A stretch of 22,324 bases of DNA, taken from positions 1 to 22,324 of the IMG/VR virus record IMGVR_UViG_3300042298_000285; one strand, written 5' to 3'. Below are positions 3,944-22,324 of the stretch, piece after piece. The stretch is from a virus. A program made the position numbers and the translations under genes. Within the stretch, counting starts at the first letter, position 1, and every line of letters begins with the position of its first letter. Under the pieces are notes generated by a model. It was not told where the DNA came from. It made no database searches and was given only the letters and a program-made list of their open reading frames with translations.

Positions 3944-3945
3944 GT

Positions 3946-4197: not shown

Positions 4198-4198
4198 C

Positions 4199-5593: not shown

Positions 5594-5617
5594 CAAAGTC
5601 AAGACACGCTGTACAGT
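5590..5617 (+). promoter_or_regulatory. sigma70-like promoter candidate
   Basis: A perfect -35 box TTGACA (5590-5595) and a -10-like TACAGT (5612-5617) are separated by 16 bases. The -35 overlaps the SNF2 stop codon, and the -10 lies in the 68-base gap, the only sizeable gap in the left operon. Transcription would begin near 5623-5625 and serve the ssDNA-binding protein, HTH and primase-helicase genes. The -10 matches only 4 of 6 consensus positions. Confidence 0.55.
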
Positions 5618-5623
5618 CGAAGA

Positions 5624-5639
5624 CGTGGGCCCACCCACG
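5624..5639 (+). promoter_or_regulatory. stem-loop at predicted 5' end of the downstream transcript
   Basis: CGTGGG (5624-5629) and CCCACG (5634-5639) form a perfect 6-base-pair stem with a CCCA loop. It has no U-tract, so it is not an intrinsic terminator. It falls exactly where RNA from the promoter at 5590-5617 would begin. A 5'-terminal hairpin can protect mRNA from decay, so this may stabilise the transcript. That role is inferred. Confidence 0.45.
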
Positions 5640-5661
5640 CAAAACAAGTAGGAGCTAACAA

Positions 5662-6087
5662 ATGCAGGAAGAAGACCAAGGGGTCGCAGCACCCCTTCCT
5701 CTAGCCGTCGATAAGGTGGCCGAGGCGTACATCTCGATCCGAGATGCCCGTGCTGAAGCGAAGCGCGTCTTTGAAGCCCAGGATGAAACCCTGGCTGAGC
5801 AGATGCGGGAGCTTGAAGCACACCTGCTTGACGTGTGCAAGCAGATCAACGCCGACAGTATCAGAACCAAAGCAGGCACAGTCATTCGTTCAGTCAAAAC
5901 ACGGTACTGGACAAACGACTGGGATTCAATGTACCGCCTCATCCATGAGAGGCAAGCATTCGGCCTGCTCGAGAAGCGACTTCATCAATCCAACATGAAG
6001 CAGTTTCTTGAAGAGAATCCAGAGGTCTTGCCTGAGGGTCTGAATCAGGACAAGGAATACACCGTGGTTGTTAGACGTGCAAAGTAA
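5662..6087 (+). CDS. conserved phage protein of unknown function, upstream of the ssDNA-binding protein
   Basis: This 141-residue protein starts at ATG 5662 with a strong AGGAG at 5650-5654. Residues about 15-65 are a charged helical, probably coiled-coil, segment (DKVAEAYISIRDARAEAKRV then LAEQMRELEAHLLDVC). A beta-rich part follows (IRTKAGTVIRSVKTRYWTNDWDSMY), then a helix and a final strand (EYTVVVRRAK). The pattern of a helical start followed by a TKAGT strand and a DWD motif recurs in a phage family encoded next to ssDNA-binding proteins. The layout loosely recalls Gam-type nuclease inhibitors, but I see no decisive motif. It is the first gene behind the promoter candidate, so it may be well expressed. 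Confidence 0.75.
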   Translation: MQEEDQGVAAPLPLAVDKVAEAYISIRDARAEAKRVFEAQDETLAEQMRELEAHLLDVCKQINADSIRTKAGTVIRSVKTRYWTNDWDSMYRLIHERQAFGLLEKRLHQSNMKQFLEENPEVLPEGLNQDKEYTVVVRRAK

Positions 6088-6092
6088 ATCAA

Positions 6093-7010
6093 ATGAGCAA
6101 CATTCAACTCTTTAATCAAGAAGTCCCCGATTTCCTCCAAAACGCTGGCTTGAGTGAACTGACCAAGTCCTTGGTCGGTCGCCCCCGTAACAAGCGTCTG
6201 GTGCCCAAGAACGGCATCTGGACGAAGATGGTTGGTGGTGAAGCGATGGGCAAGCTCAAGGGCGACATCGATGTCGTTATCGTCAACGCCGCGCCGCACG
6301 TTGGTCGGATCTTCTACGCTACTGCGTGGAACCCCGATGCCGAGCCGACCGCACCGGACTGCTTCTCGAATGATGGCCGCATCCCCGATGCCAAGTCTGC
6401 GAATGTGCAAGCCAGCCGCTGTGACGATTGCCCCCAGAACATCAAAGGTTCTGGGCAAGGCCAATCAAAAGCCTGCCGTTACAACCGTTTCATCGCCGTG
6501 CTGTTGAAGGACGACTTTGGTACTTCTCTGGAAGGAGAGGTGTACCAGATCAAGCTGGCATCCAAGTCCCTCTTTGGTGACAACGATGGCAATGCGTACA
6601 CGTTCGAGAACTACACCAAATACCTGGGCAACAACGGCAAGAACGTGGATCACGTTGTGACCCGCATTAGCTTCAACGAGAACAACGACAACCAGTCGGT
6701 TATGTTCGCTCCTGTTGGCTACATCAACCGCCAGCAGTATGACGTGGCTCAGCGCGTGGCTAACCTGCCCGCAACCAAGGCTCTGATCGCCATGACACCT
6801 TCCCAGGTCGATGGTGTTACCAAGCTGCCCCCTCCGATGTTCAAGCCTGCGATCACTACAGCCGCAGTGACTGATATTGAAGACATCGAGGATGAGCCGC
6901 CCAGCAAGCGCCCGAGCAAGAAGTCTGTAGACGCAGACGCAGAAACCCCTGCAGCCAAGAGCAAGAAGGCACTTGCCGACGTGGTCTCCGCCTGGAGTAA
7001 GGACGACTGA
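6093..7010 (+). CDS. probable single-stranded DNA-binding protein with zinc-type cysteine cluster
   Basis: This protein has 305 residues. The N-terminal two thirds are beta-rich with aromatic residues. Four cysteines (Cys90, then Cys110 and Cys113 in CDDCPQN, then Cys128 in KACRYNRF) suggest a structural zinc site. The last 60 residues are low-complexity Ala/Lys/Pro/Asp and end in WSKDD, the short acidic tip that many ssDNA-binding proteins use to contact partners. T4 gp32 also combines a zinc site with an acidic tail, but sequence similarity to gp32 is not obvious. Position between a promoter and the primase-helicase gene fits a replication SSB. No clear Shine-Dalgarno precedes ATG 6093. The assignment rests on architecture and context. 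Confidence 0.6.
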   Translation: MSNIQLFNQEVPDFLQNAGLSELTKSLVGRPRNKRLVPKNGIWTKMVGGEAMGKLKGDIDVVIVNAAPHVGRIFYATAWNPDAEPTAPDCFSNDGRIPDAKSANVQASRCDDCPQNIKGSGQGQSKACRYNRFIAVLLKDDFGTSLEGEVYQIKLASKSLFGDNDGNAYTFENYTKYLGNNGKNVDHVVTRISFNENNDNQSVMFAPVGYINRQQYDVAQRVANLPATKALIAMTPSQVDGVTKLPPPMFKPAITTAAVTDIEDIEDEPPSKRPSKKSVDADAETPAAKSKKALADVVSAWSKDD

Positions 7011-7012
7011 CC

Positions 7013-7246
7013 ATGACCTATGGGTACAGCCAGCGTATGGCGGAGCTTAATCGCTCCGCTGAGCTGGAGTCGATAGGTGTGGCGCTGGGTAGGGAATGCA
7101 TCAGGATCGGACTCTCCGTCCGTACTGTTGCAGAGGACTTAGGTGTCTCTCGCATGACGATCTACAACTGGTTCACTGGCGCAAGTAAGCCCAGTAAACG
7201 GATGGACTTGGTCGTCAAAGCTTACCTAACCGACCTACGCAAGTAA
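7013..7246 (+). CDS. small helix-turn-helix DNA-binding protein
   Basis: This 77-residue protein has a clear helix-turn-helix at residues about 36-63: SVRTVAEDLGVSRMTIYNWF followed by TGASKPSKRM, typical of Cro/CI or transposase-like XRE-type domains (helix, Gly turn, recognition helix with SRMTIYNWF). There is no ligand-binding or oligomerisation domain. It begins two bases after the ssDNA-binding protein gene and precedes the primase-helicase gene. It may regulate the phage operon or mark an origin. Neither can be decided from sequence. Confidence 0.8.
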   Translation: MTYGYSQRMAELNRSAELESIGVALGRECIRIGLSVRTVAEDLGVSRMTIYNWFTGASKPSKRMDLVVKAYLTDLRK

Positions 7247-7258
7247 CCCATGTGTACT

Positions 7259-7276
7259 ACGGAGCTTCGGCTCCGT
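7259..7276 (+). promoter_or_regulatory. extra-stable cUUCGg tetraloop hairpin before the primase-helicase gene
   Basis: ACGGAGC (7259-7265), TTCG (7266-7269) and GCTCCGT (7270-7276) form a perfect 7-base-pair stem with the C(UUCG)G tetraloop, one of the most stable RNA loops known. No U-tract follows, so termination is unlikely. It sits between the HTH stop (7246) and ATG 7300. It could act as an RNA-processing boundary, a decay barrier or a translational control element. Confidence 0.6.
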
Positions 7277-7299
7277 GGTGCCCTATTCACTCCAAAAAT

Positions 7300-10143
7300 A
7301 TGACGAACTTCGACTTGCTCGACACAGTGCTGCCCAAAGAGGGTCGGTACTGCATGTTTGGGAAAGGTCGGTACATAGTCCAGAAGTTCTTTGATACCCG
7401 GGAACAGTTAGACGCTGAGGTCAGCAAGCTTGTAGATAACAACTTCGATGCTTACTTTGGCTGCGCCAAGTTCGGTGACGCCAACAACCGTGAGCATGGA
7501 AACGCCGAGTACTTCCACGCACTGTGGATGGACATAGACTGCGGCGAAGCAAAGGCTAAGCCAAACGACAAGGGCAAGATCGAGGGGTACATCGATCAAG
7601 AGACCGGCCTGAAAGCCGTGATGGAGTTCTGCAAGTCCCAGAAGCTCCCTCGCCCGATCATTGTTGACTCAGGCAATGGCCTGCACTTCTATTGGATTCT
7701 CACTGAGGTGGTTCGTCGCCCACAGTGGGAGGCGCTGTCTAAGAGATTCCGTGCGCTGGCCATCGAGAAAGGGCTGATTGTAGATACTTCAGTATTTGAA
7801 GCATCCAGAGTCCTGCGCGTCCCCGGCACATTCAACTTCAAGAACTCTCCCCCCAGCCCTGTGGCGGTGATCAGTGGGGAGCATGACGTTACCGACTACG
7901 AAGTCTGGAAAGCACTCATCGGTGCCCCAGACGCAGAGATCCCACAAGACACCAGCCATTTGCCCAGAGGCATGAGCCCCCTTCAGGAGGCTCTGATGGA
8001 GAACCGGATCAAGCGGTTCAGCACCATCATGCTCAAGTCGGCGGGGGGTAGTGGCTGTCAGCAACTACTGTATTGCTATCAGAACCAGAAGGACATCAGC
8101 TACAACCTTTGGCGGTCGGCACTCTCTATTGCCACGCACTGCGTGGACAGGGAGAAAGCGATCCACAAGATCTCAAGCGACCACCCGCAGTACACAGAAG
8201 GTGAGACAGAGATTAAGGCTGCAGACATAGGTGGCCCACACCTGTGCACAACCTTTGAAACCCAGAACCCCGGGGGGTGTGACGGGTGCCCCAACAAGGG
8301 TAGGTTCAAGTCGCCCATCATGCTTGGTATGGACATCGCCAAGGCGGAGGAACCGGATGACGATGGTGACGGCAGTGATACCGCAGTAGCCACCCCCAAG
8401 CTCCCTGCTTTGCCGACGCCCTACTTTCGGGGCAAGCACGGCGGCATCTATCGACTACCGCCCACCACAGAAGACGATCCGGTACTTGTGTATGAGCATG
8501 AGCTTCACGTAGTCAAGCGCATGTCCGACCCGGTTCAGGGAGAGGTGGTTTTGTTCCGGCTGCACCTGCCAAAAGATGGGGTGCGTGAATTCACCCTCCC
8601 TATGACAACGGTGGTAGCTGAAAGAGAGTTGCGCCCTGCACTGGCTATGCACGGGTTGGTCAGCTTCAGTGATCAGTTCAAACTCATCTACACGTACATC
8701 ACTACGTGCGTCAAAAACATACAGGTAACCAACAAGGCAGAAATCATGAGAACTCAATTTGGCTGGGTAGACAACAACACCAAGATGATCATCGGGGATC
8801 GGGAGGTCACCGCACAGGGCAGCTTCTACAGCCCCCCGTCAAGTACGACCAAGGTCGAGGCGGAGATGATGCAACCAGAGGGTACGTTGGAGAAGTGGAA
8901 GGAAATCTTCAACATGTACGCTCAGCCTGGGCTAGAGGCGAACGCATTCGCTGCGTTGACGGGGTTCGGCTCCCCGCTGCTGAAGTTCACTGGGTTGAGT
9001 GGGGCGATCATCAACCTCATCTTCCCTGGCTCGGGCTCTGGTAAGTCCACCATCCTGTACATGTGCAACAGCATTTACGGGCACCCAAAGAACTTGGCGT
9101 CGATTTGGAAGGACACACTGAACGCCAAGATGCACCGGCTCGGGGTACTGAACAACCTGCCTAACACCATTGACGAAATCACCAACACCACTGCGGAAGA
9201 GTTCTCTGACCTTGCTTACAGCATTTCGCAGGGGCGTGGCAAGAACCGGATGAAGGCATCGTCCAACGAGATGCGGGTCAACCTGACAAGTTGGCAGGGG
9301 ATCACACTTGCTTCGTCAAATGCAAGCTTCTACGAGAAGCTCGGCGCAGCCAAAGACTCGCCCGACGGTGAGTCCATGCGTTTGATGGAGTACGCCATCA
9401 TGCCGAGCAACATCATCCCAGTGGAGTTGGGCAAGAAGATGTTTGACCACGAGCTGATGGAGAACTACGGCCACGCTGGGGACATCTATGCCGAGTACCT
9501 CGTTGGGCACCTCGAGGATGTAATCGACCTACTACGGCAGGTGCAAGCCAAGATCGACCGTGAGGTGCAGTTCACCAGCAGAGAACGGTTCTGGTCGGGC
9601 TTAGCAGCCTGCAACATCACGGGCGGCTTGCTTGCTAAAGACCTGGGCCTGCACAACTACGACATGCGGGCTGTCTACAGATGGATGGTCAACATGCTGC
9701 AGGGGATGCGTGAAGATATCAAACCCCCGTCTAGCAATGTCGTGACGATCATTGGCGAGTACGTCAACAACAACATGAGCAACGTCCTCGTGGTCAACGG
9801 AGATGCAGACGCTCGGACAAACTTGGTAGCGCTCCCCACAATGGAGCCCAGAGGTGAGCTGCTTATTCGCTTTGAGCCCGACACAAAGCGCCTGTTCTTT
9901 ACAGCCAAGGAGTTCCGGGGCTATTGCATCAAGCGGCAGATCAACTACAAGGGTGTGCTGGAGTCTCTTAAAGAGACAGGTGTATTCATCGGTCCAGGGA
10001 ACAAGCGGATGTCCAAGGGGATGAAGGTCTACTCACCGCCTGTGCGCATTCTGGAGTTCAACACAGACCATCCCGACTTCGTGAACGTCAATGACGTTCT
10101 GGGGGCTGACGATGATAATCGAAACGGTGCAGTACAGAATTAA
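7300..10143 (+). CDS. primase-polymerase (AEP) fused to DUF927-like helicase
   Basis: This 947-residue bifunctional replication enzyme has an N-terminal archaeo-eukaryotic primase domain with WMDID (Asp78 and Asp80), SGNGLHFYW (His129) and VDTSVFEASRVLRVPGTFNF (Asp162). These are the three hallmark motifs of PrimPol enzymes. A CTTF...NPGGCDGCP cluster (Cys316, Cys327 and Cys330) forms a probable zinc-binding linker. The C-terminal half is a DUF927-type ATPase: Walker A GSGSGKST (Lys582), Walker B TIDEIT (Asp625-Glu626) and a sensor-like ITLASSN. It should prime and unwind phage DNA, replacing a gp4/DnaB-type system. A longer GTG start at 7252 adds 16 residues, but that stretch is the hairpin region and reads unlike protein, so I prefer ATG 7300. 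Neither start has a clear Shine-Dalgarno. Confidence 0.92.
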   Translation: MTNFDLLDTVLPKEGRYCMFGKGRYIVQKFFDTREQLDAEVSKLVDNNFDAYFGCAKFGDANNREHGNAEYFHALWMDIDCGEAKAKPNDKGKIEGYIDQETGLKAVMEFCKSQKLPRPIIVDSGNGLHFYWILTEVVRRPQWEALSKRFRALAIEKGLIVDTSVFEASRVLRVPGTFNFKNSPPSPVAVISGEHDVTDYEVWKALIGAPDAEIPQDTSHLPRGMSPLQEALMENRIKRFSTIMLKSAGGSGCQQLLYCYQNQKDISYNLWRSALSIATHCVDREKAIHKISSDHPQYTEGETEIKAADIGGPHLCTTFETQNPGGCDGCPNKGRFKSPIMLGMDIAKAEEPDDDGDGSDTAVATPKLPALPTPYFRGKHGGIYRLPPTTEDDPVLVYEHELHVVKRMSDPVQGEVVLFRLHLPKDGVREFTLPMTTVVAERELRPALAMHGLVSFSDQFKLIYTYITTCVKNIQVTNKAEIMRTQFGWVDNNTKMIIGDREVTAQGSFYSPPSSTTKVEAEMMQPEGTLEKWKEIFNMYAQPGLEANAFAALTGFGSPLLKFTGLSGAIINLIFPGSGSGKSTILYMCNSIYGHPKNLASIWKDTLNAKMHRLGVLNNLPNTIDEITNTTAEEFSDLAYSISQGRGKNRMKASSNEMRVNLTSWQGITLASSNASFYEKLGAAKDSPDGESMRLMEYAIMPSNIIPVELGKKMFDHELMENYGHAGDIYAEYLVGHLEDVIDLLRQVQAKIDREVQFTSRERFWSGLAACNITGGLLAKDLGLHNYDMRAVYRWMVNMLQGMREDIKPPSSNVVTIIGEYVNNNMSNVLVVNGDADARTNLVALPTMEPRGELLIRFEPDTKRLFFTAKEFRGYCIKRQINYKGVLESLKETGVFIGPGNKRMSKGMKVYSPPVRILEFNTDHPDFVNVNDVLGADDDNRNGAVQN

Positions 10144-10410: not shown

Positions 10411-13400
10411 CTACTGTCGAGCGCGTTGCTCTTTCGCTTCCAGTGCCTGCCGGGATGGCAGAGCAGCTTTGCCGAAGTACTTGATGTCGGTCTCGGTCAA
10501 CGGCAGGCCACGGTAGGACTCACCCCGTGCTTTCGCTGCCGACTCAATCGAGCGAAGGATGTCGTCGGGCTCGATTGCCAACGTCTCATCAGGATGCCGC
10601 CGGTTGAACTCATCGCGCTTGGTCATGAACTCCTTGAACCGCTTGGTATCTTGTTTGAGATACGACTCTCTCAGGTTCTTCAGAATATCCTCACGCTCAA
10701 ACTTTATCTTCTGCATGACCGAGTAGAAGCGGTAGTTCAAGTTCTGAGCGTTGGAGATCTCATCAATCCGCAAGCCCATCGACTGGAACAGGAAGTCACC
10801 AAGGGTGTAGGCATCCTTGCTCAAAAGCTGCGTGCCCTTGTTGTCTTTGATGCCTTCCATCGCGTACTTCCACGCAACCAACGGACCTCGAGCGATTGCA
10901 GGGAGGAATTTCTCTGCAGCCTTCTGCGTGTCCCCATCCTTGAACGCCTTGTACGCATCCAGATACGTGAGAACCATGTTGATGGACGGGCCAGCCCGCT
11001 CAATCGCAGCCTCGATGAACCCTTCTCGAGGAGTGCGAGTCTCCTTGGTATCACGGAACCACAGGTCATTCAAAGACGTACGGCTTGCGATGTCCACACC
11101 CGTGAAGGCGTTGAGCGGGCCACGGTCAATGATGTCGCTGAGCTTCGTGCCGCCGATAGTGACATGTCCAAACTTCTCGGGCAGCAGCTCAGTGCGCCAC
11201 CAAAGTTCATAGTCCATCTGCTTGAGTGTCTTGGGCTTGTCCTCGTCACCGAGCGCGTTGGCCATCGCCCCCAGTAAACCCATGATGACACTGAACAGCG
11301 GCAGGCCAGAGGCCCCCGCCAGCAAGCCGGTCACACCCAAGATCCCAGAGAACTCCTTGAATGCCAGCCACCGAGTCTTACCCGGCAGTGGCTTGATGGT
11401 TTGAGCAAAGGTGCGTACAAGCCTCGTTGTGATAAATAGCGGATACATCGCAAACTGCAACACGAACCTTCCCGCTGCTTTCTGGAACAACGGTGGTCGG
11501 TTGTGCACAGCCATGTTGCCTGCGCTGTCGTGCGTGTCCTCGATAGCTTGGTCGATTGCAGCTTCATGAGCATCATTTGCTGCCTTGAGAACGTCTTGGT
11601 TCGCAGCCTTGGCGGCATCGACGGCCTTTTTAATAGCCAGTCGGTACGAGGTCAGGAACAGGATCTCGCGGGTGATGCGCTCGGCGTTGCTGAACAGCCC
11701 GCCTGTGATGGTGGTAGCTACGTGATACGCAGTGTCCTTGACCCCACCGACCTCAATAGACGGCACCCGAGCGCGTTCAAGAATTTCACCCGTCATGGTG
11801 GCATCGGTGCCACGGGCCATTGCCTTGAGTGCTTTGCGCTCATTGCCATTAAAGAAGACCGCTTTGGAGTGAAGCATCGAGATCGTTGGGAATACTCCTA
11901 ACGTGCGCTTGATATCCAATGCTGCAGTACGCTCAAGACCGAACTCGTCCCAGAACTTCATCAGCTTGGTCATCTCACGCGCAGTCTCAGCGTACCCATG
12001 CCGAGCGCCAAGAAGAGCAGCCCCATACGGCAAAGAGCTTAGCTGCACCAACGCAGAACCTGCTGCTGACAAGTAGTAGATGAACGAAGCACGGGTTGCC
12101 AGATCAACCGCCTTGGACCCAAGCTCAACCGACTTGGTAGACAACCCCGGCACCTTGTGCCCGTAGGGGTTCAACTGCACATCAACGCGCCGCGCCATCT
12201 CCTGCTGGTAGCGAACCAGAAGTGACTTCTCAGGGTTGCCCTCCAGCGATTTATCCGCAGCCACAAGTGAGTTGCGCAGCATGGTGCCGTACTTGATTCG
12301 GGCAAGTTGGCTGGACATGTGGATGGCAGTGGTGGAGAAGTTGCGGAGCAAGTCAGTGTTGAAGCCCGTGATCTCCTTACGCTTGATGAACGCTGTACGG
12401 AAGCTTTGGTCCGGCAGTGTGTTCAGGTAAAGCTGGTAGATGGAATCCTTGAGCTTGTCCCGACGGATACGGTCAACAGCAGGGTCACCCGTAGAGATTG
12501 GCGCAGCATCGATCAACTCAAAGATCTTGGTTAGCGCAGCCGTCATGTCTGACGTTTCTTTGCGGAACGACTCCAGCGTATCGCCTTGATCAAACTCATC
12601 AGGGTCTTTGAGGACTTCCTCGATAGGCCGATTGGTGCGCTGGGCGATGTCCTTAGCAAGCTCACGCTTCAGGGCTTCACGCTCGTAGGTAGAAGCAAAC
12701 GTGTAGAACTGCCGATCCTTGCTCTTCCTCTTACCCACACGCAGCCACAGATCCCCGCGATTACGCACCAACGCGAAATACGGAACGATGCGCTTGTCGG
12801 CTTCGTAGAGCTTCTTGATCTCAGCCAGCAGTTTGCTACGGGCACTTGCGGGCAGATCGGTGTTGTTGATCTGGTCATCCAGCAGGGTGCTGTAGTAGTC
12901 CACCATCGATTCGTAGTACTGCTTCAACTTCTTGTACAGCCGTTGCCCCTCTTTGCCGAGGCCGGTGTACAGCGAGTTCAGATCCTTGCTACGCTTATCA
13001 ACAGTTGGGTCGATCTCTGCGATGGTCGAGGCATAGACCACCTTCATCAGCTTGTCGCGCAGCCCAGGTTCTTTCTTGAACGTGGCGACCATGTCGTCGC
13101 TGATCTTCCCTGCAGCCTCCATCAGGTTGAACTCCATGCCACGCATGAGGCTCAACAGCTTGTTGGTGTTCTTCAGCTCAGGGATTGCTACGCTGCCTAC
13201 TTCTGCAATGGTGTCGGTGGTCATCAACGGCAAGAGCGTGTCAAGCCTTGACGCATCCAACGAATACAGAATGGAGCTGAGGACCGGTTTGATCTCGGAC
13301 AAATCACGCAGGGCATAGAGCCGACTCAGTTGTTCGGCACCCTTTGCGGACGCTCTTACTTTGGCAAGTGCTGCGTCAACGTCGGCGTCTATTTGCTTCT

Positions 13401-16400
13401 GAGTGCGGGTGTCCGCAGGCGTCAGAGTTGGGCCTGCAGCTCCTCCACTGACTCCACCTTGCTGAGCAGTTCCGCCAGCGGGCGGTACAGCTCCACTCCC
13501 ACCTTGTCCTGCTCTTGCTGATAGAGCCCCAGACTCACCATCACCCGGCTCCTCATTCTCTCTAGCTGCTGCTGAGGACTTTCCTTCGGATTTGCCGTAG
13601 TCTTCAAGAGATTTTGCAGTGTTTTTCGTTGTTGAGCGTCCATACGCCTCTCTCATTGCGGTAAAGGTGGACTCGTGCCGAGTCAGGATGTCCAGCAGAG
13701 CGTCACGATAGTAATCCATCAGTCCTTGGTCTGCCAAGTACTGATCTACCTTCATCATGTTGCTGTTGTGTGCCACCCCGTGATCCATAGACCCCGTGTG
13801 GGCGATCTCGTGGACCATCGTGCTCAGCAGGTTCTCACGCACACCAAACAGCGTCTTTGCCCCCCAGTCATAGAAGGGGTTTAGCAGCACTGCCTTGTAC
13901 GGGACCTTGATGTGAACGCCGCCGTAGCCCTTGTCTATGGAGATACCCGCGAAGAACAGATTCTTCGGGTCAAGCTTGTCGTAGCCATACAGTCCACTGT
14001 TTGCAGCAGACTCCTTCATCTCCACCATCAAGGTGCCGAGTTCAGCAAAGAACTGCTTCGGGTCTCCGTAGGCTTCGCCAATCTCTAGGAAGTCTACGTT
14101 GGTGTTGTTGTGGAAGATGGGCAGGCGTGGGTCCTGCTGCATCTGCAGCATGAACTGTTCACGGTCAGGCGCAGCCTTATCCGCCTTGAAGGTGGCTTCC
14201 TTTTGGTTGTCCTTACCCTTAAGTGGCTCAACGAGTTGTTTACCCTGCTTGTCTGTGACTCCCTTGTCGGAGACAAAAATCTCTGTTGGTAGGGGCGGCA
14301 GTTCCTTAGGTGCCACGGGTGCAGCAGCGTTTTTGTCGAACGCCTTCTTGAGCTTCTTGCTGGCGTCAGCAATGTCAGCACCCACGTCAATACGGGGCAT
14401 CGACACAATGCCCTTGAACGACTCCTGCAAACCTTCAGCCTCAACACCCCTGGCCACTTTCGCTAGGTATGACTGCAGTGCTTTGATATCTTCGTTGATA
14501 CGCTCTTTGAATCGTTCACGGCTGTTTTCAAACGGGTAGTCGGGGTGTTGGGCTACAACATTTGGTTTGATGTTGATGATGATGTCATGTGGTATGACCT
14601 CATTCATGTTTAGGTTGAATTGCTTATTGAACTGGTAAACGCCAGAAGACAGTACTTTATGGGCAGGGTATTGTTTGTGTTCAACACCAAAGTAGATATC
14701 TGCATCACCCCATGAGAAATGCGCACTGGTCAGCTTTGGGATGACTTTTTCATTGAAGTTGACACCAACATCTAAGACCTTGACTATGGGGTCGCCATAG
14801 CCGGGGTTGAACTCTACTGTTACTTGCGTCGGGCCAAGCAAGGGCTGCTGCAGTACATCGACACTGTCTGCCCCCCAAGGGAAGTAGATGTTCTTCTGCT
14901 GCCCCGTTTTGGGGTCAGTGTAGTTTTCAGGGATCTTTACCGTGACCGTAGTGCCATGTTCGGACTTCGGGGCGGCTTCCTTTTTTATCTGGAAAACTTC
15001 ACCAGCGATTTCTTCTGCAGTGGCATCCACGGTTGTACGCATGCCGTCACGCACGGTATCCAGCTTCAGCCAATCAGAACCGAGCATGAAGCCCATCTTG
15101 GCAAGACCGAGGCCACCGCTGCGCTCACTTGGGTCAAGATCGGTTTTGCTTGTGCCACCAACAGTAAAGAAGGCTGACTTGATGATGTCAGGGGTCATCC
15201 CCCTGGCGTTGTCTGAAACAGTAATGGTGCGGTCATCTGCATTGAGCGTGATCTTGATGTCACCAGTCTTGATAAGCCCAATCTTCACTGCGCCCTTGAC
15301 TGCATCGAATGCGTTCTGCAGAAGCTCCTTGACTGCAACGTCGGCCACGTTGGCGGCATACATGCTTGCGCCGAGCACCTTGATCAGGTTGCCCATATCG
15401 GCTTGCAGCTTGACGTCCTCAGAACCAAACTGCTGCTTGGAAGCCGCAGAAGTAGCCGTCAGATTGGGCCGAGAGATGATCTCTACGTTCTTCTTGTTGA
15501 CGCGGTGGTAAGCCTTGGGGCTGACAGCATTGTTCGGCTGTACTTTGACGTAGTCACCATCCACACCGAGCACCACACCCATCGTGTTACCCACACGGAC
15601 GGTGTCTCCCTCACGAGGGGCAGACTTTTTCAGTTCCTCTGCAGTCGGTGCAGTCTCACCCGTAGCCTCAACCCGGGCTTCGCCACGGGTCATCTTCTGA
15701 CGCTGTTCCTTGACCTCAGGCTTTTTCCCACCCGCACCTGCTCCACGCAGATACTCAGATACTTTCTGCTTGGTCTCTGGGTTCAGGTTGGGGACCGTCA
15801 CGAACTTCTTAAGCTGCTCATTGACTTCTGGATCAGTCAACTCTTTGTCAGCAAGCCGAGTACGTATCGGTGCCTTGGGGGCTATGCCCAAGCTGTCAAA
15901 GAACCCAGGTACAGCAAGTGTGTAGGTGAGTGCCGGAGCTGCAGGGGTTGGTGCCGGAGCGGGTTCGGGAGCCGGAGCGGGTTCGGGAGCCGGAGCGGGT
16001 TCGGGAGCCGGAGCGGGTTCAGGGGTTGGGGCGGGCTCAGGAGCTGGAGCGGGTTCAGGGGCCGGAGCGGGGGCCGTAGGGGTTGGGGCGGGCGCAGTTG
16101 GAGTTACTGCAGTGGGTTGCTCTGTTGCTCCTGCAGGAGGCCGTCCAACATCCGGCTCAGTAGGAACCACTCCACCTGTTGGAGGGACTCCAGCTCCTTG
16201 GGCGGGGGCTCCTGCACTGGGCTTGCCAGCCACTGAAACGCCTTCTCCAACTGCTGGTTCGACAGGTTTTGCAGCACTTGGTGTTCCTTCGGCAGGGGTT
16301 TCTGGTTGTGCACGCTTCGTAAGCTCCGCACGGATTGCTTCAATAAGAGGAGCTTTGCGCTGATCCTCAGGCTTGGCAAGCTGAGTCTTCAGAGTCTCTT

Positions 16401-18321
16401 GGAGCAACGTAGTCGGCCATGCCCCAACAGCAGGGGTCTCTGGCGCGGGGGCTCCTGCAGGGGCAGGGGGCTTAGCCTGCTCATCGATTACAGCAGTGGC
16501 CCTCTTACGCGCATCAGCCTCTTCCCAACCAGCCTGGATGTACTGGTTAGTCAGCGTATTGATCTTGCCTTCGCGCTCAGCAGCTTCCAACTCTTTGGTA
16601 CGGGCGTCTGTTGCGGGAGGAGCCGGGGGTGTAGGCGGAGCTACCGGAGGAGCGGGCGGAGCCGGGGGTGGCGGAGGTGGGGCTTGGGTCTCCTGTACCT
16701 CGTCCAGTGCTTGCAGCGCGGCGTCTTCAGGCTTCATACCTGAAGCCATCAACTCCTTTGTGCGCTGCACAATCTTGTTCTGGTCCAGCGGAGCTTCTTG
16801 CGCAAACTGCGCACGTTGTACTTCCGGCTTAGGGATGACCTTGTTGGGGTCGTACATCTCAGGTGACAGGGCACGCCGTGCGTATTCTTCAACAGGCTCT
16901 TTGAGGAAGTCCCGCTCAGCAATGTCTTTACGTAGACCTCGGGCAAGTGCTGCTTCGGGGGCGTACTTCTCAAAAGCCCGTTCAGCGCCACGCTTGCTTT
17001 CAATTGCACCGACAGTTGCGCCAGCCATCGTGCCCGACTGGATCACGGTCTGCCTGAGGGTCTCCCCTGCAGCTTCCAACAGATCAGCCCAACCTGCGTT
17101 GGGGCGCAGCCCAAACTCCGGAGCTTTGTCTATCAGGAACTGAGTAAATGTAGTTGCCTGCTCTGCAGGTATTTCCTTTGCCATTGCGGTGGCAAAGTAG
17201 CGTGCAATGTCCGCATTCGGGTTACCAGCCAGTTGCTTCTTCAGCCCAGCCAGAGCACCGGTCATACCGAAACGCTCAAAGACAAGTTCTGCAGCCGTCA
17301 ACAAAGACGCACGAGTAGCCGCAGCCCCCGGCTCCAACCCTTGACTACGGCCTTGACCGTACTCATTACTGAATACCTCTATACCCACACTAGCCAAGAC
17401 AGGCACGGCTGTACCTGTGAGCACACTGAGCGCAAGCATCGGCCCTTGTGTGGTGAGCGTAGCGAGTGCTTGCTGCGCAGACTTGGCGAATACACCTTCC
17501 CCCTCAGGGATAGCTGCAGTACGTTCAGCACCAATACGCTGCGCTCCGCGCAGCCGAGCCTTCATCTCGTCATCACCGACGATGTCGGCGTAGATGTTCA
17601 TCAGCCCCATGCCAGCCTGTTCAGCACGGGCACCGGCAGTAGCACCGACGCGATCAAGGAAGCCCGCGCCTTCCATTTCCTTCTTGGTCTTGGCAGCTTC
17701 AGCCCCAGCCTGCTCACCCACCACATCAGCAGTCATCTGCTGGAGGTCTTGCCCTGGCAACCCAGTCATAGCCTGGGCGATTGCCTTGCTCCTGGCAGTC
17801 TCTGGCGCAGCACCTTGCCGCATGAACCGCTCCATCTGCGGCTCAAGTCTGGTCTCCAATATACCCTTCGTAGCAGGCAGTGCACCCTCAAGTGCAGCGT
17901 ATTGGTTGGCGATCTGCCGAACCGCTCGGCCAGTGACATCGGACCTTGTACCAAGCTTCATCAGCGCAGCGTTGCGCTGAGCTTCGGGCATCGCGTCCAG
18001 CTTAGCCTTGATCCCAGCCACAAACTCAGGCTGCAGCATGGGGTCGGTGTACCCCGGAGTGCCAAACTCAGGAGTCGCGGCTGGGCCTGGACGCTCCAAC
18101 AAAGGCTGCTTATACAGCGCAGATCTACCAAAAGCTTCAGCCCCAGTCATGGGGCCTACTTTTCCAGGGTACGTCTCCTTGCCACCGAACAAAGAGGCAA
18201 GACCCCCAGCGGGGGGTTGGACCCCCAGCATCCTATTTACAGTTGCTTGTATTACAGCCGGGTTTGTGCCGTCGGGGAACTCAAGGATTCTTCCATCTGC
18301 CAGTTCAGCTTCAATCGGCAT
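10411..18321 (-). CDS. giant polyvalent virion protein: GHKL ATPase, HExxH metallopeptidase, LPD38-like C-terminus
   Basis: This 2636-residue protein starts at ATG 18321. The leader MPIEAELADGRILEFPDGT is typical of large phage virion proteins. Residues about 287-315 are hydrophobic, about 545-571 poly-Pro, and about 741-797 Pro-Ala-Glu repeats. Residues about 897-945 (GDTVRVGNTMGVVLGVDGDY) look SH3/KOW-like. A GHKL ATPase follows: N box with Glu999 and Asn1003 (KELLQNAFDA), G1 box DNARGM from Asp1037, and glycine-rich lid SGGLGLAKMG at 1068-1077. A zinc peptidase motif HEIAH lies at 1504-1508, with further histidines at 1514 and 1518. The rest is helical, with hydrophobic stretches near 2079-2106 and 2325-2357, and resembles large polyvalent protein domain 38. 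Such proteins are thought to be packaged and injected with phage DNA. The host target is unknown. It is the last gene of the virion operon. Confidence 0.88.
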   Translation of the reverse strand: MPIEAELADGRILEFPDGTNPAVIQATVNRMLGVQPPAGGLASLFGGKETYPGKVGPMTGAEAFGRSALYKQPLLERPGPAATPEFGTPGYTDPMLQPEFVAGIKAKLDAMPEAQRNAALMKLGTRSDVTGRAVRQIANQYAALEGALPATKGILETRLEPQMERFMRQGAAPETARSKAIAQAMTGLPGQDLQQMTADVVGEQAGAEAAKTKKEMEGAGFLDRVGATAGARAEQAGMGLMNIYADIVGDDEMKARLRGAQRIGAERTAAIPEGEGVFAKSAQQALATLTTQGPMLALSVLTGTAVPVLASVGIEVFSNEYGQGRSQGLEPGAAATRASLLTAAELVFERFGMTGALAGLKKQLAGNPNADIARYFATAMAKEIPAEQATTFTQFLIDKAPEFGLRPNAGWADLLEAAGETLRQTVIQSGTMAGATVGAIESKRGAERAFEKYAPEAALARGLRKDIAERDFLKEPVEEYARRALSPEMYDPNKVIPKPEVQRAQFAQEAPLDQNKIVQRTKELMASGMKPEDAALQALDEVQETQAPPPPPPAPPAPPVAPPTPPAPPATDARTKELEAAEREGKINTLTNQYIQAGWEEADARKRATAVIDEQAKPPAPAGAPAPETPAVGAWPTTLLQETLKTQLAKPEDQRKAPLIEAIRAELTKRAQPETPAEGTPSAAKPVEPAVGEGVSVAGKPSAGAPAQGAGVPPTGGVVPTEPDVGRPPAGATEQPTAVTPTAPAPTPTAPAPAPEPAPAPEPAPTPEPAPAPEPAPAPEPAPAPEPAPAPTPAAPALTYTLAVPGFFDSLGIAPKAPIRTRLADKELTDPEVNEQLKKFVTVPNLNPETKQKVSEYLRGAGAGGKKPEVKEQRQKMTRGEARVEATGETAPTAEELKKSAPREGDTVRVGNTMGVVLGVDGDYVKVQPNNAVSPKAYHRVNKKNVEIISRPNLTATSAASKQQFGSEDVKLQADMGNLIKVLGASMYAANVADVAVKELLQNAFDAVKGAVKIGLIKTGDIKITLNADDRTITVSDNARGMTPDIIKSAFFTVGGTSKTDLDPSERSGGLGLAKMGFMLGSDWLKLDTVRDGMRTTVDATAEEIAGEVFQIKKEAAPKSEHGTTVTVKIPENYTDPKTGQQKNIYFPWGADSVDVLQQPLLGPTQVTVEFNPGYGDPIVKVLDVGVNFNEKVIPKLTSAHFSWGDADIYFGVEHKQYPAHKVLSSGVYQFNKQFNLNMNEVIPHDIIINIKPNVVAQHPDYPFENSRERFKERINEDIKALQSYLAKVARGVEAEGLQESFKGIVSMPRIDVGADIADASKKLKKAFDKNAAAPVAPKELPPLPTEIFVSDKGVTDKQGKQLVEPLKGKDNQKEATFKADKAAPDREQFMLQMQQDPRLPIFHNNTNVDFLEIGEAYGDPKQFFAELGTLMVEMKESAANSGLYGYDKLDPKNLFFAGISIDKGYGGVHIKVPYKAVLLNPFYDWGAKTLFGVRENLLSTMVHEIAHTGSMDHGVAHNSNMMKVDQYLADQGLMDYYRDALLDILTRHESTFTAMREAYGRSTTKNTAKSLEDYGKSEGKSSAAARENEEPGDGESGALSARAGQGGSGAVPPAGGTAQQGGVSGGAAGPTLTPADTRTQKQIDADVDAALAKVRASAKGAEQLSRLYALRDLSEIKPVLSSILYSLDASRLDTLLPLMTTDTIAEVGSVAIPELKNTNKLLSLMRGMEFNLMEAAGKISDDMVATFKKEPGLRDKLMKVVYASTIAEIDPTVDKRSKDLNSLYTGLGKEGQRLYKKLKQYYESMVDYYSTLLDDQINNTDLPASARSKLLAEIKKLYEADKRIVPYFALVRNRGDLWLRVGKRKSKDRQFYTFASTYEREALKRELAKDIAQRTNRPIEEVLKDPDEFDQGDTLESFRKETSDMTAALTKIFELIDAAPISTGDPAVDRIRRDKLKDSIYQLYLNTLPDQSFRTAFIKRKEITGFNTDLLRNFSTTAIHMSSQLARIKYGTMLRNSLVAADKSLEGNPEKSLLVRYQQEMARRVDVQLNPYGHKVPGLSTKSVELGSKAVDLATRASFIYYLSAAGSALVQLSSLPYGAALLGARHGYAETAREMTKLMKFWDEFGLERTAALDIKRTLGVFPTISMLHSKAVFFNGNERKALKAMARGTDATMTGEILERARVPSIEVGGVKDTAYHVATTITGGLFSNAERITREILFLTSYRLAIKKAVDAAKAANQDVLKAANDAHEAAIDQAIEDTHDSAGNMAVHNRPPLFQKAAGRFVLQFAMYPLFITTRLVRTFAQTIKPLPGKTRWLAFKEFSGILGVTGLLAGASGLPLFSVIMGLLGAMANALGDEDKPKTLKQMDYELWWRTELLPEKFGHVTIGGTKLSDIIDRGPLNAFTGVDIASRTSLNDLWFRDTKETRTPREGFIEAAIERAGPSINMVLTYLDAYKAFKDGDTQKAAEKFLPAIARGPLVAWKYAMEGIKDNKGTQLLSKDAYTLGDFLFQSMGLRIDEISNAQNLNYRFYSVMQKIKFEREDILKNLRESYLKQDTKRFKEFMTKRDEFNRRHPDETLAIEPDDILRSIESAAKARGESYRGLPLTETDIKYFGKAALPSRQALEAKEQRARQ
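15953..16024 (-). repeat. 18-base tandem repeat encoding Pro-Ala-Glu units
   Basis: Four consecutive 18-base units (GCCGGAGCGGGTTCGGGA on the + strand; three perfect, the last with two changes) begin at 15953, 15971, 15989 and 16007, with degenerate units extending to about 16080. On the coding strand they give a six-residue Ala-Pro-Ala-Pro-Glu-Pro repeat. It forms an extended, probably stiff spacer between the N-terminal part of the giant protein and its ATPase region. The 18-base period preserves frame, so copy number can vary without breaking the gene. Confidence 0.9.
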
Positions 18322-18332
18322 GTGTTATCTCA

Positions 18333-20048
18333 CTACTGGAGTTGTTTGCCTTGGGCATCAAACTTTAATCGGGTGGTTGGTGCAGACCCCGGAGCTGGGC
18401 TTGGGGATGAAGTGCCCGGTGCTGTTAGCTGCCGCAGCCTACCAGCCTCATTACCGGCAATGATCTTAGCCCGTTCTTGGTCCCGCCACTCCTGTTTTTC
18501 CGCCTCAGACATACTCCAGAGATTGGTATTGAGCATCTCCCGCTTACGCAGCTCGGCATCAACAGCCGGGTCACGGCGGGCTGCAGTACCTTCAAGGGAG
18601 GCTACGGCCCTACCTCTAGCGTGGTCATCTCTTGCCCTGGCTTTAGTCTCCGGCCCTGGCTTCTCACCCCTGGCAATACGCGCTGCATAGTAGTCGGCAA
18701 CTGACTGCTCTTGGTCAGTGAGTCTGTCTGGTTTAGCACCCCCTTGCCCCTTAGCTGCAGCACGGGTACGAGCAGCTTCAACTTGAGCCGCAGCGGTGAT
18801 CTTTTTCTCTTCAATGCCAGCAATCGCTGCGATCTCTCTAGCCGAGGCAGCGTTACCTGAAGCGTAGAGTTTAGTAGCGGTATCAAACAGCTTAGCCCTT
18901 TGGGCATTGACTGTCTTAAGGTCGTTGTTGCCCTGAGCGCGTTGCAGCCCTTCAATGTCGTACTTGGCCTTGTTGAGCAGCTCTTCGCGCTTGATTGCTG
19001 CAGCGTCAATACCTGCTGCTTCTTGAGCACGTGCTTCCATAGAAGGGGCTATGGATTTAGTAAACCCAGCGCCTAGCCCGCCGAGACTACCCAGACCTCC
19101 TCTTTGCCCGCGAGTACCTTCCCCCGCAGCAACCAAAGCTTTGTAGAAATCCATGCGCTTGTTGGCCTCAAGCTGCTTACGTGCAGCCTCATCCTGTGCA
19201 CCTTGCTTTGCCATCAATGCTTGGAGACCCGCCAAGTAATCCCCGCCGATTGGCTTGTTCAGCACTCCGTACATGGCTGGGTCTTGTTTAGCCATGCTTT
19301 CACGGGTAGCCAACTCTGGAGCTACTGGCGCAGCCGCCCGCCTTTGTGCGAAAGCAGCTTGAAGCCCAGCGAGTTGCTGGGCGGTTGACTGAGGTCCTTG
19401 GGGGGCTTGGGCAGCTTGCGGCTGCATGGAGCGCGTTGTTGGAGGAGTGATTGGTACAAACTCGGGTGGACGACCCAAAGGGGCGGGGCCAATTGGTACA
19501 AGCCCCTCAATGTCCCTACTCTGTGGAACAGGACGGTCCTCAACAGGAAAGGACTCAGCCCCCTGCTCTTCTTCGTCGTCATCCTCGTCGTCTTCGTCTG
19601 ACGAAGAGTCCACAGCTTCTTTTGTGCCCTTAGCAAATGCAACGATGCCACCACCGGCCATCCTAAGGACATCAGGCTGCATCACACCCGGCTGAGCCGC
19701 TGCGTTTGCGATACCAGTTGCCTCTGGCTGCATATCAGGTTGAGGGGCACCCTCCGGTACAGGCATGGGTTGAGCCGCTGCACCCTGCATCATCTGCTGT
19801 TGAGCCTGCCCCATCCGCATACCCTGAAGCGCAGCTAATCCGGCTTGCTGCTCCAGTTGGTCTTTGACCGTGCCCGTGGGGGGCTCTACTTGCTCTTGGT
19901 CAAGTTTGTTTCGCCGCTGTATTTCACCAAGAGCTAAATACGGAGGGACCGCCGTATTCATGCCGTTGGCGTACGCTATCAACAGTTGCTGTGTTTGCGG
20001 GCCAGGGGGAAGCCCCTTCAGCCGCTCTTGGACTTGAATCAGATTCAT
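18333..20048 (-). CDS. putative virion structural protein with acidic tract
   Basis: This 571-residue protein starts at ATG 20048, 4 bases after the preceding stop. The N-terminus (residues about 20-50) contains AVPPYLALGEIQRR. Residues 130-141 carry MAGGGIVAFAKG, a glycine-rich strand motif that recurs in structural proteins of environmental phages. Residues 148-161 are almost all Asp, Glu or Ser (SSSDEDDEDDDEEE). The remainder is Ala/Gln-rich and predicted helical, with coiled-coil character around 290-480 and a low-complexity Pro/Ser C-terminus. There is no enzyme motif. Its place directly upstream of the giant gene and downstream of other structural-type genes suggests a minor or internal virion protein, perhaps part of the ejection apparatus. 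That is inference from context. Confidence 0.7.
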   Translation of the reverse strand: MNLIQVQERLKGLPPGPQTQQLLIAYANGMNTAVPPYLALGEIQRRNKLDQEQVEPPTGTVKDQLEQQAGLAALQGMRMGQAQQQMMQGAAAQPMPVPEGAPQPDMQPEATGIANAAAQPGVMQPDVLRMAGGGIVAFAKGTKEAVDSSSDEDDEDDDEEEQGAESFPVEDRPVPQSRDIEGLVPIGPAPLGRPPEFVPITPPTTRSMQPQAAQAPQGPQSTAQQLAGLQAAFAQRRAAAPVAPELATRESMAKQDPAMYGVLNKPIGGDYLAGLQALMAKQGAQDEAARKQLEANKRMDFYKALVAAGEGTRGQRGGLGSLGGLGAGFTKSIAPSMEARAQEAAGIDAAAIKREELLNKAKYDIEGLQRAQGNNDLKTVNAQRAKLFDTATKLYASGNAASAREIAAIAGIEEKKITAAAQVEAARTRAAAKGQGGAKPDRLTDQEQSVADYYAARIARGEKPGPETKARARDDHARGRAVASLEGTAARRDPAVDAELRKREMLNTNLWSMSEAEKQEWRDQERAKIIAGNEAGRLRQLTAPGTSSPSPAPGSAPTTRLKFDAQGKQLQ

Positions 20049-20052
20049 ATTT

Positions 20053-20910
20053 TTAACCCAGCTTCAAACCCTTGACCGCTTCCATCAGGGACCCAAGCCC
20101 ACCGATAGTAGATGTCAACTGCCCAATCCCACTCATCTGCGCAGGAGTGTTGGTCACCGTGGAAATCGGCAAACCCTGCAACATGGACTGCAGGAACTGC
20201 ACTTGTTTTTGTGGGTAGTCACGTTGGGCCAGGAATTCGTTGTAGTCGGCAGTGATGCCTTCTTGTTCAATGCCACGTTGTGCAGTGCCCGCCCCAGCCA
20301 GCATGTCAGCAAGGGTCTTGGCTTGGCCCTGTTCAGTATTGAACTGCCCCATCGCCCGATCATAGGCGTTAGCGTACCCAGTACCGATGGCTTTGTTTTG
20401 CTCTTGCAGCAGGTTGCGCTGAGTCTCAGCGTCCATAATGGCTTGGCGGGAGCCACCATATGCCCCTGCTTGAGACAGCTTAGCGGCATTACCCATCTGC
20501 GTCATCCGGCTTTGCCGACTAAGCTCTTCCAACTGAGGCGTCAATACCGCACTCAGGTACGGGTTCATGTAGTTAGCGGCAATGCCACCCGGCCCAGTCT
20601 GCTGGCCCGTGACCCCCGTAGAAGTCATTGTCGGCAGTTGGTACGCATCCGTGGAGGAGAAAGACTTCCCAAGCTGGCCGGGGAAAGTCAAGTTACCCAA
20701 CCCCTGGAACACCTTGGACTGCAGGCCAGATTCGCCCGCAGTCATCGGCCCTTGGTATGTCTGGTATGGCTGCTGGGACAAAGCCTGAGCCTGCCCCAGC
20801 ATGTTGGTTACATATGGGCCAGCCCACTCAGAAAGAGTTGAAGAGGATGACCCCCCCGCTGCAGGGAGTGCGGAGGCTGCAGTGCCTGCAGTGTTGGGCA
20901 TAGTAGCCAT
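20053..20910 (-). CDS. putative virion structural protein (GSRQAIMDAE family)
   Basis: This 285-residue protein starts at ATG 20910 with AGGA six bases upstream. The N-terminal half is Ser/Gly/Gln/Thr-rich (GPYVTNMLGQAQALSQQPYQ, a motif common near the start of this phage family). The central part (residues about 115-180) is the most conserved-looking: MNPYLSAVLTPQLEELSRQS then GAYGGSRQAIMDAETQRN, followed by a helical AYDRAMGQFN stretch. I recognise this combination from structural genes of aquatic phages, where it is usually annotated only as hypothetical or virion protein. A role as tail or internal core component is plausible. No enzyme motif or membrane segment is seen. Confidence 0.7.
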   Translation of the reverse strand: MATMPNTAGTAASALPAAGGSSSSTLSEWAGPYVTNMLGQAQALSQQPYQTYQGPMTAGESGLQSKVFQGLGNLTFPGQLGKSFSSTDAYQLPTMTSTGVTGQQTGPGGIAANYMNPYLSAVLTPQLEELSRQSRMTQMGNAAKLSQAGAYGGSRQAIMDAETQRNLLQEQNKAIGTGYANAYDRAMGQFNTEQGQAKTLADMLAGAGTAQRGIEQEGITADYNEFLAQRDYPQKQVQFLQSMLQGLPISTVTNTPAQMSGIGQLTSTIGGLGSLMEAVKGLKLG

Positions 20911-21742: not shown

Positions 21743-22324
21743 TCAACCTCTTCCAATGATGTTCAGCAACTCGTCGTAGGACGTGGGCTCGTCGGACTGA
21801 GCCAGGATCTGCTGTAGGTAGTCTTCTGCAGGATTCTCCTGCTTTTCACGTTCTTGAGCAATCTGTTGTTCCTCGATCTGCTCCCCCACGGCACCGGCTT
21901 TAGTGACGCTGAGTTCCTTGTACTTCTCGTCGGACACCTTGCCCTTCCCCAGCTTCTGCTTCTTTGAACCGAACTCCTTGCCGTAATAAAACACATTGGC
22001 GAGTTCCGGCCTGCCAATGGCAGCAGCCATAGCCTGGGCTTGGGGCAAAGAAATACGTGGGCGTGAAGTTGGAGTGGGTGTAGGAGTGGGTGTAGGGGTC
22101 GGAGTGGGTGTAGGAGTAGGGGTCGGAGTGGGTGTAGGAGTAGGAGTCGGAGTGGGTGTAGGAGTAGGAGTCGGAGTGGGTGTAGGAGTCGGAGTGGGTG
22201 TAGGAGTGGGAGTCGGAGTGGGTGTAGGAGTGGGAGTCGGAGTGGGAGTCGGAGTAGGGGTTGGAACAACGGGGGTGGGAGTCGGAGTAGGGGTTGGAAC
22301 AACGGGGGTGGGAGTCGGAGTGGG
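21743..22324 (-). CDS. virion-type protein with long Pro-Thr tract, 5' end outside window
   Basis: The frame is open from the right edge down to TGA at 21743-21745, giving 193 visible residues with the N-terminus missing. The first 86 or so are an almost pure Pro-Thr dipeptide repeat with two Pro-Val-Val-Pro interruptions. A folded-looking part follows: [20 protein letters not shown], then [20 protein letters not shown], then a charged helix ([20 protein letters not shown]) and the C-terminal [11 protein letters not shown]. Choosing the internal TTG at 22048 would lose the repeat and has no ribosome binding site, so I treat the gene as partial. The Pro-Thr tract resembles a rigid, extracellular-type linker. 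Context suggests a virion component. I do not recognise a family. Confidence 0.75.
21747..21751 (-). promoter_or_regulatory. Shine-Dalgarno favouring ATG 21741
   Basis: AGAGG on the - strand lies 5 bases before ATG 21741 and is too close to serve the in-frame TTG 21756. It also overlaps the end of the upstream gene (TGA at 21743-21745), so reinitiation or coupling is likely. Confidence 0.55.
22067..22324 (-). repeat. hexanucleotide-based tandem repeat encoding (Pro-Thr)n
   Basis: About 258 bases consist of a 6-base unit (GGAGTN-like on the + strand) with higher-order patterns: a 24-base unit around GTCGGAGTGGGTGTAGGAGT recurs several times, and a 33-base unit containing GGTTGGAACAACGGGGGTGG appears twice near the right end (TTGG at 22261 and 22294). 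It continues to the window edge and so is longer than seen here. All visible units keep the reading frame of the Pro-Thr protein. Confidence 0.92.

Follow-up and report, generated by a model that had tools for sequence, protein, structure and literature searches.

A giant ORF and its domain layout

The window, as we denote the whole stretch of DNA analyzed here, is a 22,324-base IMG/VR virus fragment that encodes a giant protein, P0001 (Table 1). The original prediction of a single uninterrupted ORF of 2636 residues proved correct; the strand, which it did not give, is minus, and the plus-strand reading of 10411-18321 is riddled with stop codons. A second IMG/VR contig (L002, IMGVR_UViG_3300044631_000179) carries an equal-length giant with the same ends, identical across the 467 queried residues, which rules out an assembly artefact confined to one contig as the source of the ORF. 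P0001 is under purifying selection, with an overall dN/dS of 0.106 in the comparison with its homologue in L004 (88% amino acid identity); the lowest value in this comparison, 0.038, was obtained for the GHKL domain and the highest, 0.33, for the linker after the zincin.

P0001 combines two disparate enzymatic domains, a GHKL ATPase and a zincin metallopeptidase, with a polyvalent C-terminal tail and is encoded among virion genes, which makes it a phage polyvalent protein. Pfam, the structural model of the zincin and the homology of the tail agree on this combination, as originally predicted, and both of the proline-rich spacers noticed at that stage are present, at about 545-570 and 739-800. 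The source virus is probably a podovirus; among the taxonomic markers in Pfam, P22 portal, T7-type connector and Terminase_6N were each detected in few relatives. A convergent early module occupies window positions 1241-10143 on the plus strand and encodes a PolA-type DNA polymerase, a PDDEXK exonuclease, an SNF2-type helicase and a DUF927 primase/helicase.

Table 1. Features of P0001 and of the adjacent genes in the window
Feature	Residues	Window coordinates	Strand	Evidence
Giant ORF P0001, complete, 2636 aa		10411..18321	minus	ATG start, uninterrupted
Exchangeable virion-protein leader (ADGRILEFPDGTNPAVIQ)	1-33	18223..18321	minus	phiM5 gp31 match
N-terminal region	34-560	16642..18222	minus	16-24% identity outside nearest relatives
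Pro/Ala-rich low-complexity linker	561-900	15622..16641	minus	sequence; unconserved
Small beta-barrel-like module start	905-955	15457..15609	minus	conserved G/V pattern; five strands in model
GHKL ATPase domain	956-1145	14887..15456	minus	Pfam HATPase_c, PDB profile, Foldseek
Middle (transducer-like) domain	1146-1390	14152..14886	minus	YPFxxSRE; Foldseek ~400 columns
Zincin metallopeptidase domain, Wss1/WLM-like (subfamily only a lead)	1391-1585	13567..14151	minus	AlphaFold, profile, Foldseek
HEIAH active-site motif	1504-1508	13798..13812	minus	invariant in 32/32
Gly/Ala-rich linker	1586-1690	13252..13566	minus	weakest constraint, dN/dS 0.33
LPD39	1695-1823	12853..13239	minus	E 4.7e-5, 23.6 bits, below cut-off 27
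DarB-like polyvalent C-terminal tail	1831-2636	10411..12831	minus	phrog_10089, LASTA; 29 phage records
571-aa gene directly upstream, same operon		18333..20048	minus	no family match
285-aa gene, DNA ejection protein family		20053..20910	minus	phrog_4287, 2.5e-5

A conserved core module between exchangeable flanks

An IMG/VR scan with residues 958-1424 retrieved 35 loci, and a profile search 57 loci. In the alignment of relatives, residues ~905-1585 of P0001 stand out as one block of high conservation, a module of ~680-690 amino acids, between nearly unconserved flanks. The module is 89% identical to that of the window in the two nearest relatives and 59-67% identical in those beyond; among the latter, identity falls to 16-24% in the N-terminal region, to 6-20% in the LPD39 stretch and to 12-28% in the tail. 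Complete giant ORFs of the relatives encode ~2,000-5,200 amino acids, with the exception of L088 and L089 (~1,690), and two unrelated tails are found on the same module, the LPD39/DarB-LASTA type in the clade of the window and the LPD38 type in L009, L012 and L033. The most divergent members (21-37% identity) have other architectures: the module is located at the N-terminus in L076, L078 and L079, and several add ART-PolyVal, ddrB-ParB, SLT, InPase, LPD1, LPD5, MutS_I or RadC to the polyvalent domains found in relatives, which also include LPD38. Judged by these comparisons, the module is a single unit that stays intact, with different leaders, N-terminal regions and tails swapped in around it. 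The start of the module (residues 905-955) is SH3/KOW-like by eye and is confined to the main clade. For the module as a whole, AlphaFold gave a mediocre model (pLDDT 66, pTM 0.43), too weak to place the ATPase relative to the protease.

The GHKL ATPase and its middle domain

The GHKL domain matches Pfam HATPase_c (E 9.5e-9) and HATPase_c_3 (E 5.4e-7), both passing the curated cut-offs, and all four boxes are present in P0001, namely, the N-box (KELLQNAFD, 998-1006), G1 (DNARGM, 1037-1042; DNG or DDGxGM in relatives), G2 (SGGLGLAK, 1068-1075) and G3 (HGT, 1122-1124), so that the full nucleotide-binding site proposed from the sequence holds up in the profile search. The GHKL boxes are invariant or nearly so overall, and the N-box Asn, the G1 Asp and the G2 glycines do not vary in 32 diverse sequences. 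A PDB profile search returned 105 chains at E<=0.01, of which the best 60, the matches listed, are all Hsp90-family proteins, with HtpG (Hsp90) at the top (9e-8); the 50 Foldseek matches listed, obtained with a model of pLDDT 66, are Hsp90 and GyrB/ParE (E to 6e-11, probability 1.00). The GHKL domain of P0001 is accordingly predicted to adopt the Bergerat fold.

The Foldseek alignments to Hsp90 and GyrB run for ~400 columns and reach the middle domains of these proteins, and for this reason, we regard the stretch after the GHKL domain as the usual middle, or transducer, domain. In Hsp90, the arginine of the SRE motif is the catalytic residue of the middle domain. In the YPFxxSRE motif of the module, Arg1268 is invariant in all 32 sequences and lies 262-290 residues from the N-box Asn in 29 of these and 332-348 residues in the three that contain inserts; the same distance in Hsp90 (293) and in T4 rIIA (227) is comparable. 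Alignments of Hsp90 (S327-R328) and of rIIA (R278-E279) show invariant residues of like kind.

The best named phage matches of the module in tblastn are rIIA proteins (E 2e-4), which suggested a specific kinship with rIIA, but this idea was dropped because a control profile of Hsp90 matched about equally: the profile comparisons gave 4.9e-10 and, with divergent members, 1.8e-13 for rIIA, and 4e-11 and 6.5e-13 for Hsp90. No rIIB gene was recognised within the window. The middle domain is not followed by the C-terminal dimerisation domain of Hsp90; the zincin takes this place, which sets the module apart from the Hsp90 family. Because the Hsp90 and rIIA profiles match alike, we treat the module as a GHKL branch of its own and do not assign it to the rIIA, Hsp90 or MORC families. 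The earlier label “MORC-type” is not supported: in a profile comparison that covered Hsp90 and rIIA, the domain is about equidistant from both, and no MORC protein appears among the 60 PDB or the 50 Foldseek matches listed. A hypothetical protein of the Enterobacter phages SABI and SonariX (PQ864023.1, 37883-38833; PQ898399.1, 207694-208644) resembles L079 across its GHKL and middle domains (25.7% identity, E 8e-4).

The zincin metallopeptidase

A lone HExxH pentapeptide in 2636 residues is weak evidence of a peptidase; we accept it nevertheless because the motif is invariant and the surrounding region has a confidently predicted zincin-like fold. His1504, Glu1505 and His1508 are conserved in all 32 sequences, at identities down to 19%, and a third histidine follows at position 1514; the candidate third zinc ligand is this histidine or an acidic residue. 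The AlphaFold model of this domain (199 residues, 32 sequences) reaches a pLDDT of 92.1 and a pTM of 0.88 and consists, in this order, of a helix, strands (77-100), the HEIAH helix (111-127) and two further helices. The zinc peptidase motif recognised in the original prediction is thus upheld by its invariance and by structure prediction for this segment. All 7 PDB profile matches at E<=1 are zincin-type proteases, the best of them Wss1p (0.014), and the best 5 Foldseek matches are all to Wss1, with E values of 0.24-0.7 that are suggestive only. Below the respective cut-offs, Pfam places WLM or YgjP-like metallopeptidase on the HExxH motif in four divergent relatives and gives WLM E values of 0.0009-0.003 in three relatives. 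On the basis of the model and these matches, the assignment of residues 1391-1585 to the zincin class appears safe, and the Wss1/WLM subfamily is only a lead. His1470 (H575 of the module), at the strand before HExxH, is invariant in the main clade and agrees with what Iyer et al. describe for phage-type zincins (PMC5512222). The same zincin fold is found in a 1404-residue viral model in BFVD, A0A516L4L2_1 (Foldseek 1.6e-8, TM 0.82, 22% identity), which may point to a named virus with a relative.

The two domains occur together

The zincin-wide alignment was too little conserved to serve as a collection query, and a narrower alignment was used instead. Seeding with the zincin only in this manner yielded 49 IMG/VR loci. 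In all 49, the ORF with the zincin also encodes a G2 box upstream of it; the N-box is canonical in 42 of these, and the remaining seven have variants such as KEMLQN, KELTQN and KEGLQN. Conversely, when GHKL was the seed, HExxH was found downstream in each of the 20 divergent loci checked; L085 ends at a contig edge. The spacing between the middle-domain Arg and HExxH is 218-255 residues in 30 of the 32 sequences and shorter (155-174) in L087 and L088, and no long low-complexity linker separates GHKL from the zincin. Because the pair is constant while the flanks change, GHKL and zincin most likely work as one machine. The original prediction missed this conserved unit, and the comparison of sequences argues against two independent effectors strung together on one chain.

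Leader, tail and delivery

All 33 residues of the leader align with the extreme N-terminus of gp31 of Sinorhizobium phage phiM5 (54.5% identity, E 4e-4), a protein annotated as “putative internal virion protein; detected in phage particle proteome”, so that the virion-type leader is confirmed. The leader also matches the start of a 708-aa protein of Rhizobium phage RHph_N65, whose gene immediately follows that of a “putative injection protein”. In L004, an unrelated leader, a tandem NPxTGExxFLVxNQW, replaces the first ~38 residues (window 18208-18321, minus strand, versus L004:4041-4200), and the rest of the protein is 86-90% identical (86% in the N-terminal region); no leader of this type was found in isolated phages. 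At the position of the LPDG-type leader, relatives start with short tandem-repeat tags. These fall into several unrelated classes (NPxTGE..LVGxQW, FSFEEA, FTTFTPLD, WTPPSDAVV, FVPL and PKSFIPDEEEE); such N-termini were found in L004, L015, L029 and L072, in L021 and L066, in L028 and L032, in L023 and L034, in L013 and L033, and in L089. These tags may be interchangeable signals for packaging or ejection.

At the other end of the protein, residues 1757-2606 align end to end with the tail of the giant of Klebsiella phage LASTA (E 2e-48, 23%), a protein in which LPD39 is detected at 9e-65, and residues 1836-2609 match phrog_10089, “DarB-like antirestriction” (E 7e-46), over only the last ~680 of the 4647 profile columns. 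P0001 has neither the adenine methylase nor the SNF2 helicase by which a DarB-like antirestriction protein is defined and shares only the C-terminal tail with DarB-like proteins, so the DarB name should not pass to it. As for the “long helical hydrophobic C-terminus” predicted here, a polyvalent region is indeed present, in the form of this DarB/LPD39-type tail; segment 2260-2500, singled out previously, belongs to the same tail, has one hydrophobic stretch at 2327-2358 and is not a separate domain. LPD38 maps to 2273-2406 at an identity no better than chance and is not claimed for the window.

The genes upstream of P0001 point to a virion operon, as proposed, within a neighbourhood that is visible only to the contig edge. 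The product of the 571-aa gene is, by its position, likely a virion or ejection protein. Matches to phrog_4287, the family of the 285-aa gene, recur in the same neighbourhood in L011 (8e-20), L009 (2e-4) and L014 (3e-5); in the window and in these three relatives, the respective gene either adjoins the giant gene on its upstream side or is separated from it by one gene. L009 additionally encodes a phrog_3287 virion structural protein upstream, and the gene order in L004, L005, L009, L011 and L019 is like that in the window. In BLASTP comparisons, no similarity was found between the two upstream window genes and their counterparts among the virion genes of LASTA and JC1, nor between the L009 neighbours and LASTA/JC1 virion proteins. 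Just upstream of the ejection-protein genes, at 21743-22324 on the minus strand, lies a gene with a long (PT)n repeat that leaves the contig.

Mass spectrometry of purified virions has revealed the presence of a giant of the LPD38 type, gp69 of Burkholderia phage JC1 (PMC9144972). From the leader, the tail family, the ejection-gene neighbourhood and this virion detection, we strongly infer that P0001 is packaged in the virion, in agreement with the original expectation.

Possible functions of the GHKL-zincin module

We give about an even chance to the explanation that P0001 is a packaged and ejected polyvalent protein in which an ATP-driven clamp feeds or gates a zinc protease directed against a client met at the stage of entry. 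P0001 would be packaged in the virion and ejected into the host along with the DNA, with the leader and the tail handling packaging and delivery. The GHKL clamp would dimerise and close on ATP, with the middle-domain arginine acting as the catalytic residue as in Hsp90, and the motion of the clamp would capture or open a client and hand it to the zincin. Most likely, this client would be a host or defence protein encountered right after entry. A Wss1-like protease joined to a DNA-clamp-like ATPase would suit the stripping of proteins from incoming DNA. A more specific proposal is a protease driven by ATP through an Hsp90-type GHKL clamp in place of an AAA+ ring. It would arrive preformed in the virion as an exchangeable payload of DarB/LPD giants and, at the very start of infection, would dismantle complexes of the host or its defences bound to the incoming DNA; this proposal is tentative, and we rate it as possible only. 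The short spacing in L087 and L088, a structural match to Wss1 below significance, the mediocre model of the whole module and the dissimilarity of the two upstream window genes to LASTA and JC1 virion genes in BLASTP count against the preferred explanation.

The Pro/Ala linkers on both sides of the module are also compatible with a processing role of the protease. The zincin could cut its own chain at these linkers, before packaging or after ejection, and free the parts, with GHKL as an independent effector. Self-processing is proposed for polyvalent-protein zincins by Iyer et al. 2017, who cite the processing of P1 DdrB (PMC5512222), and would agree with the long low-complexity linkers that flank the module and with the relaxed selection on the 3' linker. 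Independent parts, however, should sometimes occur alone, whereas GHKL and the zincin are co-conserved at near-constant spacing and with no long linker between them across very divergent architectures; furthermore, N4 vRNAP has a zincin and yet is packaged unprocessed (PMC5512222). We hold self-processing, the main rival, to be rather unlikely. The module might instead aid assembly or ejection as a chaperone-protease acting on virion proteins, for example, by keeping the chain translocation-competent, without any host target, as might be expected of an Hsp90-like domain behind a leader from an internal virion protein and next to ejection-protein genes. Yet the giants of LASTA and JC1, with the same tails, manage without the unit and bear a methylase-helicase, which marks the unit as a payload rather than something that such giants generally need and makes an assembly role decidedly unlikely.

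Less probable still is a factor akin to rIIA, a GHKL protein guarding against abortive infection that would be delivered early rather than expressed early. The rIIA proteins are the best named phage matches, the profile match with the divergent members reaches 1.8e-13, and both middle domains contain an RE motif, but the Hsp90 profiles match about equally, leaving no specific kinship, and no rIIB is seen within the window. Finally, P0001 could be a late non-structural protein that shares tail domains with virion proteins by chance. No proteomics was found that covers this virus or another carrier of the module; nevertheless, the resemblance of the leader to a particle-detected protein, the detection in virions of another DarB-like giant of this class and the conserved position near an ejection-protein gene leave this a very slim prospect. 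Delivery of an ATP-gated protease against an entry-stage client stays our preferred explanation.

Relation to known systems

P0001 shares the C-terminal ~850 residues, including LPD39, with the DarB-like giant of LASTA (NC_054965 gp01, 4433 aa), which is encoded after the virion structural genes; unlike P0001, the latter contains an SLT transglycosylase, an adenine methylase and an SNF2 helicase. JC1 gp69 (4515 aa) belongs to the same class of DarB-like giants; it has the tail type of L009, L012 and L033 as opposed to the LPD39-type tail of P0001, carries a different payload and gives no convincing BLASTP match to P0001. As described by Iyer et al. 2017, polyvalent proteins such as P1 DdrB and N4 vRNAP are, like P0001, multi-enzyme chains in a virion context with an HExxH zincin that has a conserved His near strand 2 (His1470 in P0001), and P0001 differs in that its zincin is welded to GHKL. 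Hsp90/HtpG has the Bergerat ATPase fold and a middle domain with SRE in common with P0001 and ends in a dimerisation domain where P0001 has the zincin. The rIIA proteins of T4 and related phages resemble P0001 in GHKL, the RE motif of the middle domain and phage origin, but stand alone at ~640-860 aa with no annotated polyvalent tail, and rIIB follows them in three of the loci examined. Wss1/WLM proteases, which act on DNA-protein crosslinks, provide the best sequence and fold matches of the zincin and share with it HExxH and, in many members, the third histidine; the similarity is weak, and nothing in P0001 indicates the SUMO or p97 modules that Wss1 has.

We found no earlier description in the literature of GHKL paired with a zincin in injected phage proteins. 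GHKL, HATPase, Hsp90, GyrB and Bergerat are not mentioned in the main text of the survey of polyvalent proteins (PMC5512222), and in the one paper found that brings phage polyvalent proteins and GHKL together, the latter term applies to topoisomerases and rIIA. Searches of the 50,697 phage records of INPHARED with the window module and three divergent queries gave GHKL-type matches only, with no GHKL-zincin pair and no match covering most of the module; the plasmid matches listed are likewise of the GHKL type only. Hence, the polyvalent protein is of a known kind, and the payload and the welded ATPase-protease unit appear to be undescribed.

The same tail bears a methylase-helicase in LASTA and GHKL-zincin in P0001, so DarB-type injected giants can be viewed as a chassis for delivery on which leaders, payloads and tails are exchanged. 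To our knowledge, known ATP-dependent proteases run on AAA+ motors; a GHKL-zincin fusion that is never separated in the loci found and retains both active sites is a candidate for another way to couple ATP to proteolysis. With clear module boundaries and predicted catalytic residues, the module is directly testable.

A cellular origin of the module was also considered, but among 84,980 genomes, the sole matches were two MAG contigs, L096 (Neisseriaceae, RXKI01000114.1), where the frame is interrupted as read, and L097 (Woesearchaeota), where the match is limited to 129 GHKL residues; both are possibly viral contigs binned into MAGs. Two carriers, L075 (2-12667) and L077, are giants of more than 4000 aa. 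L075 combines InPase, LPD5, LPD1, MutS_I, RadC, GHKL, zincin and LPD38, and thereby mixes InPase, phage-only according to Iyer et al., with RadC, described there for conjugative elements only.
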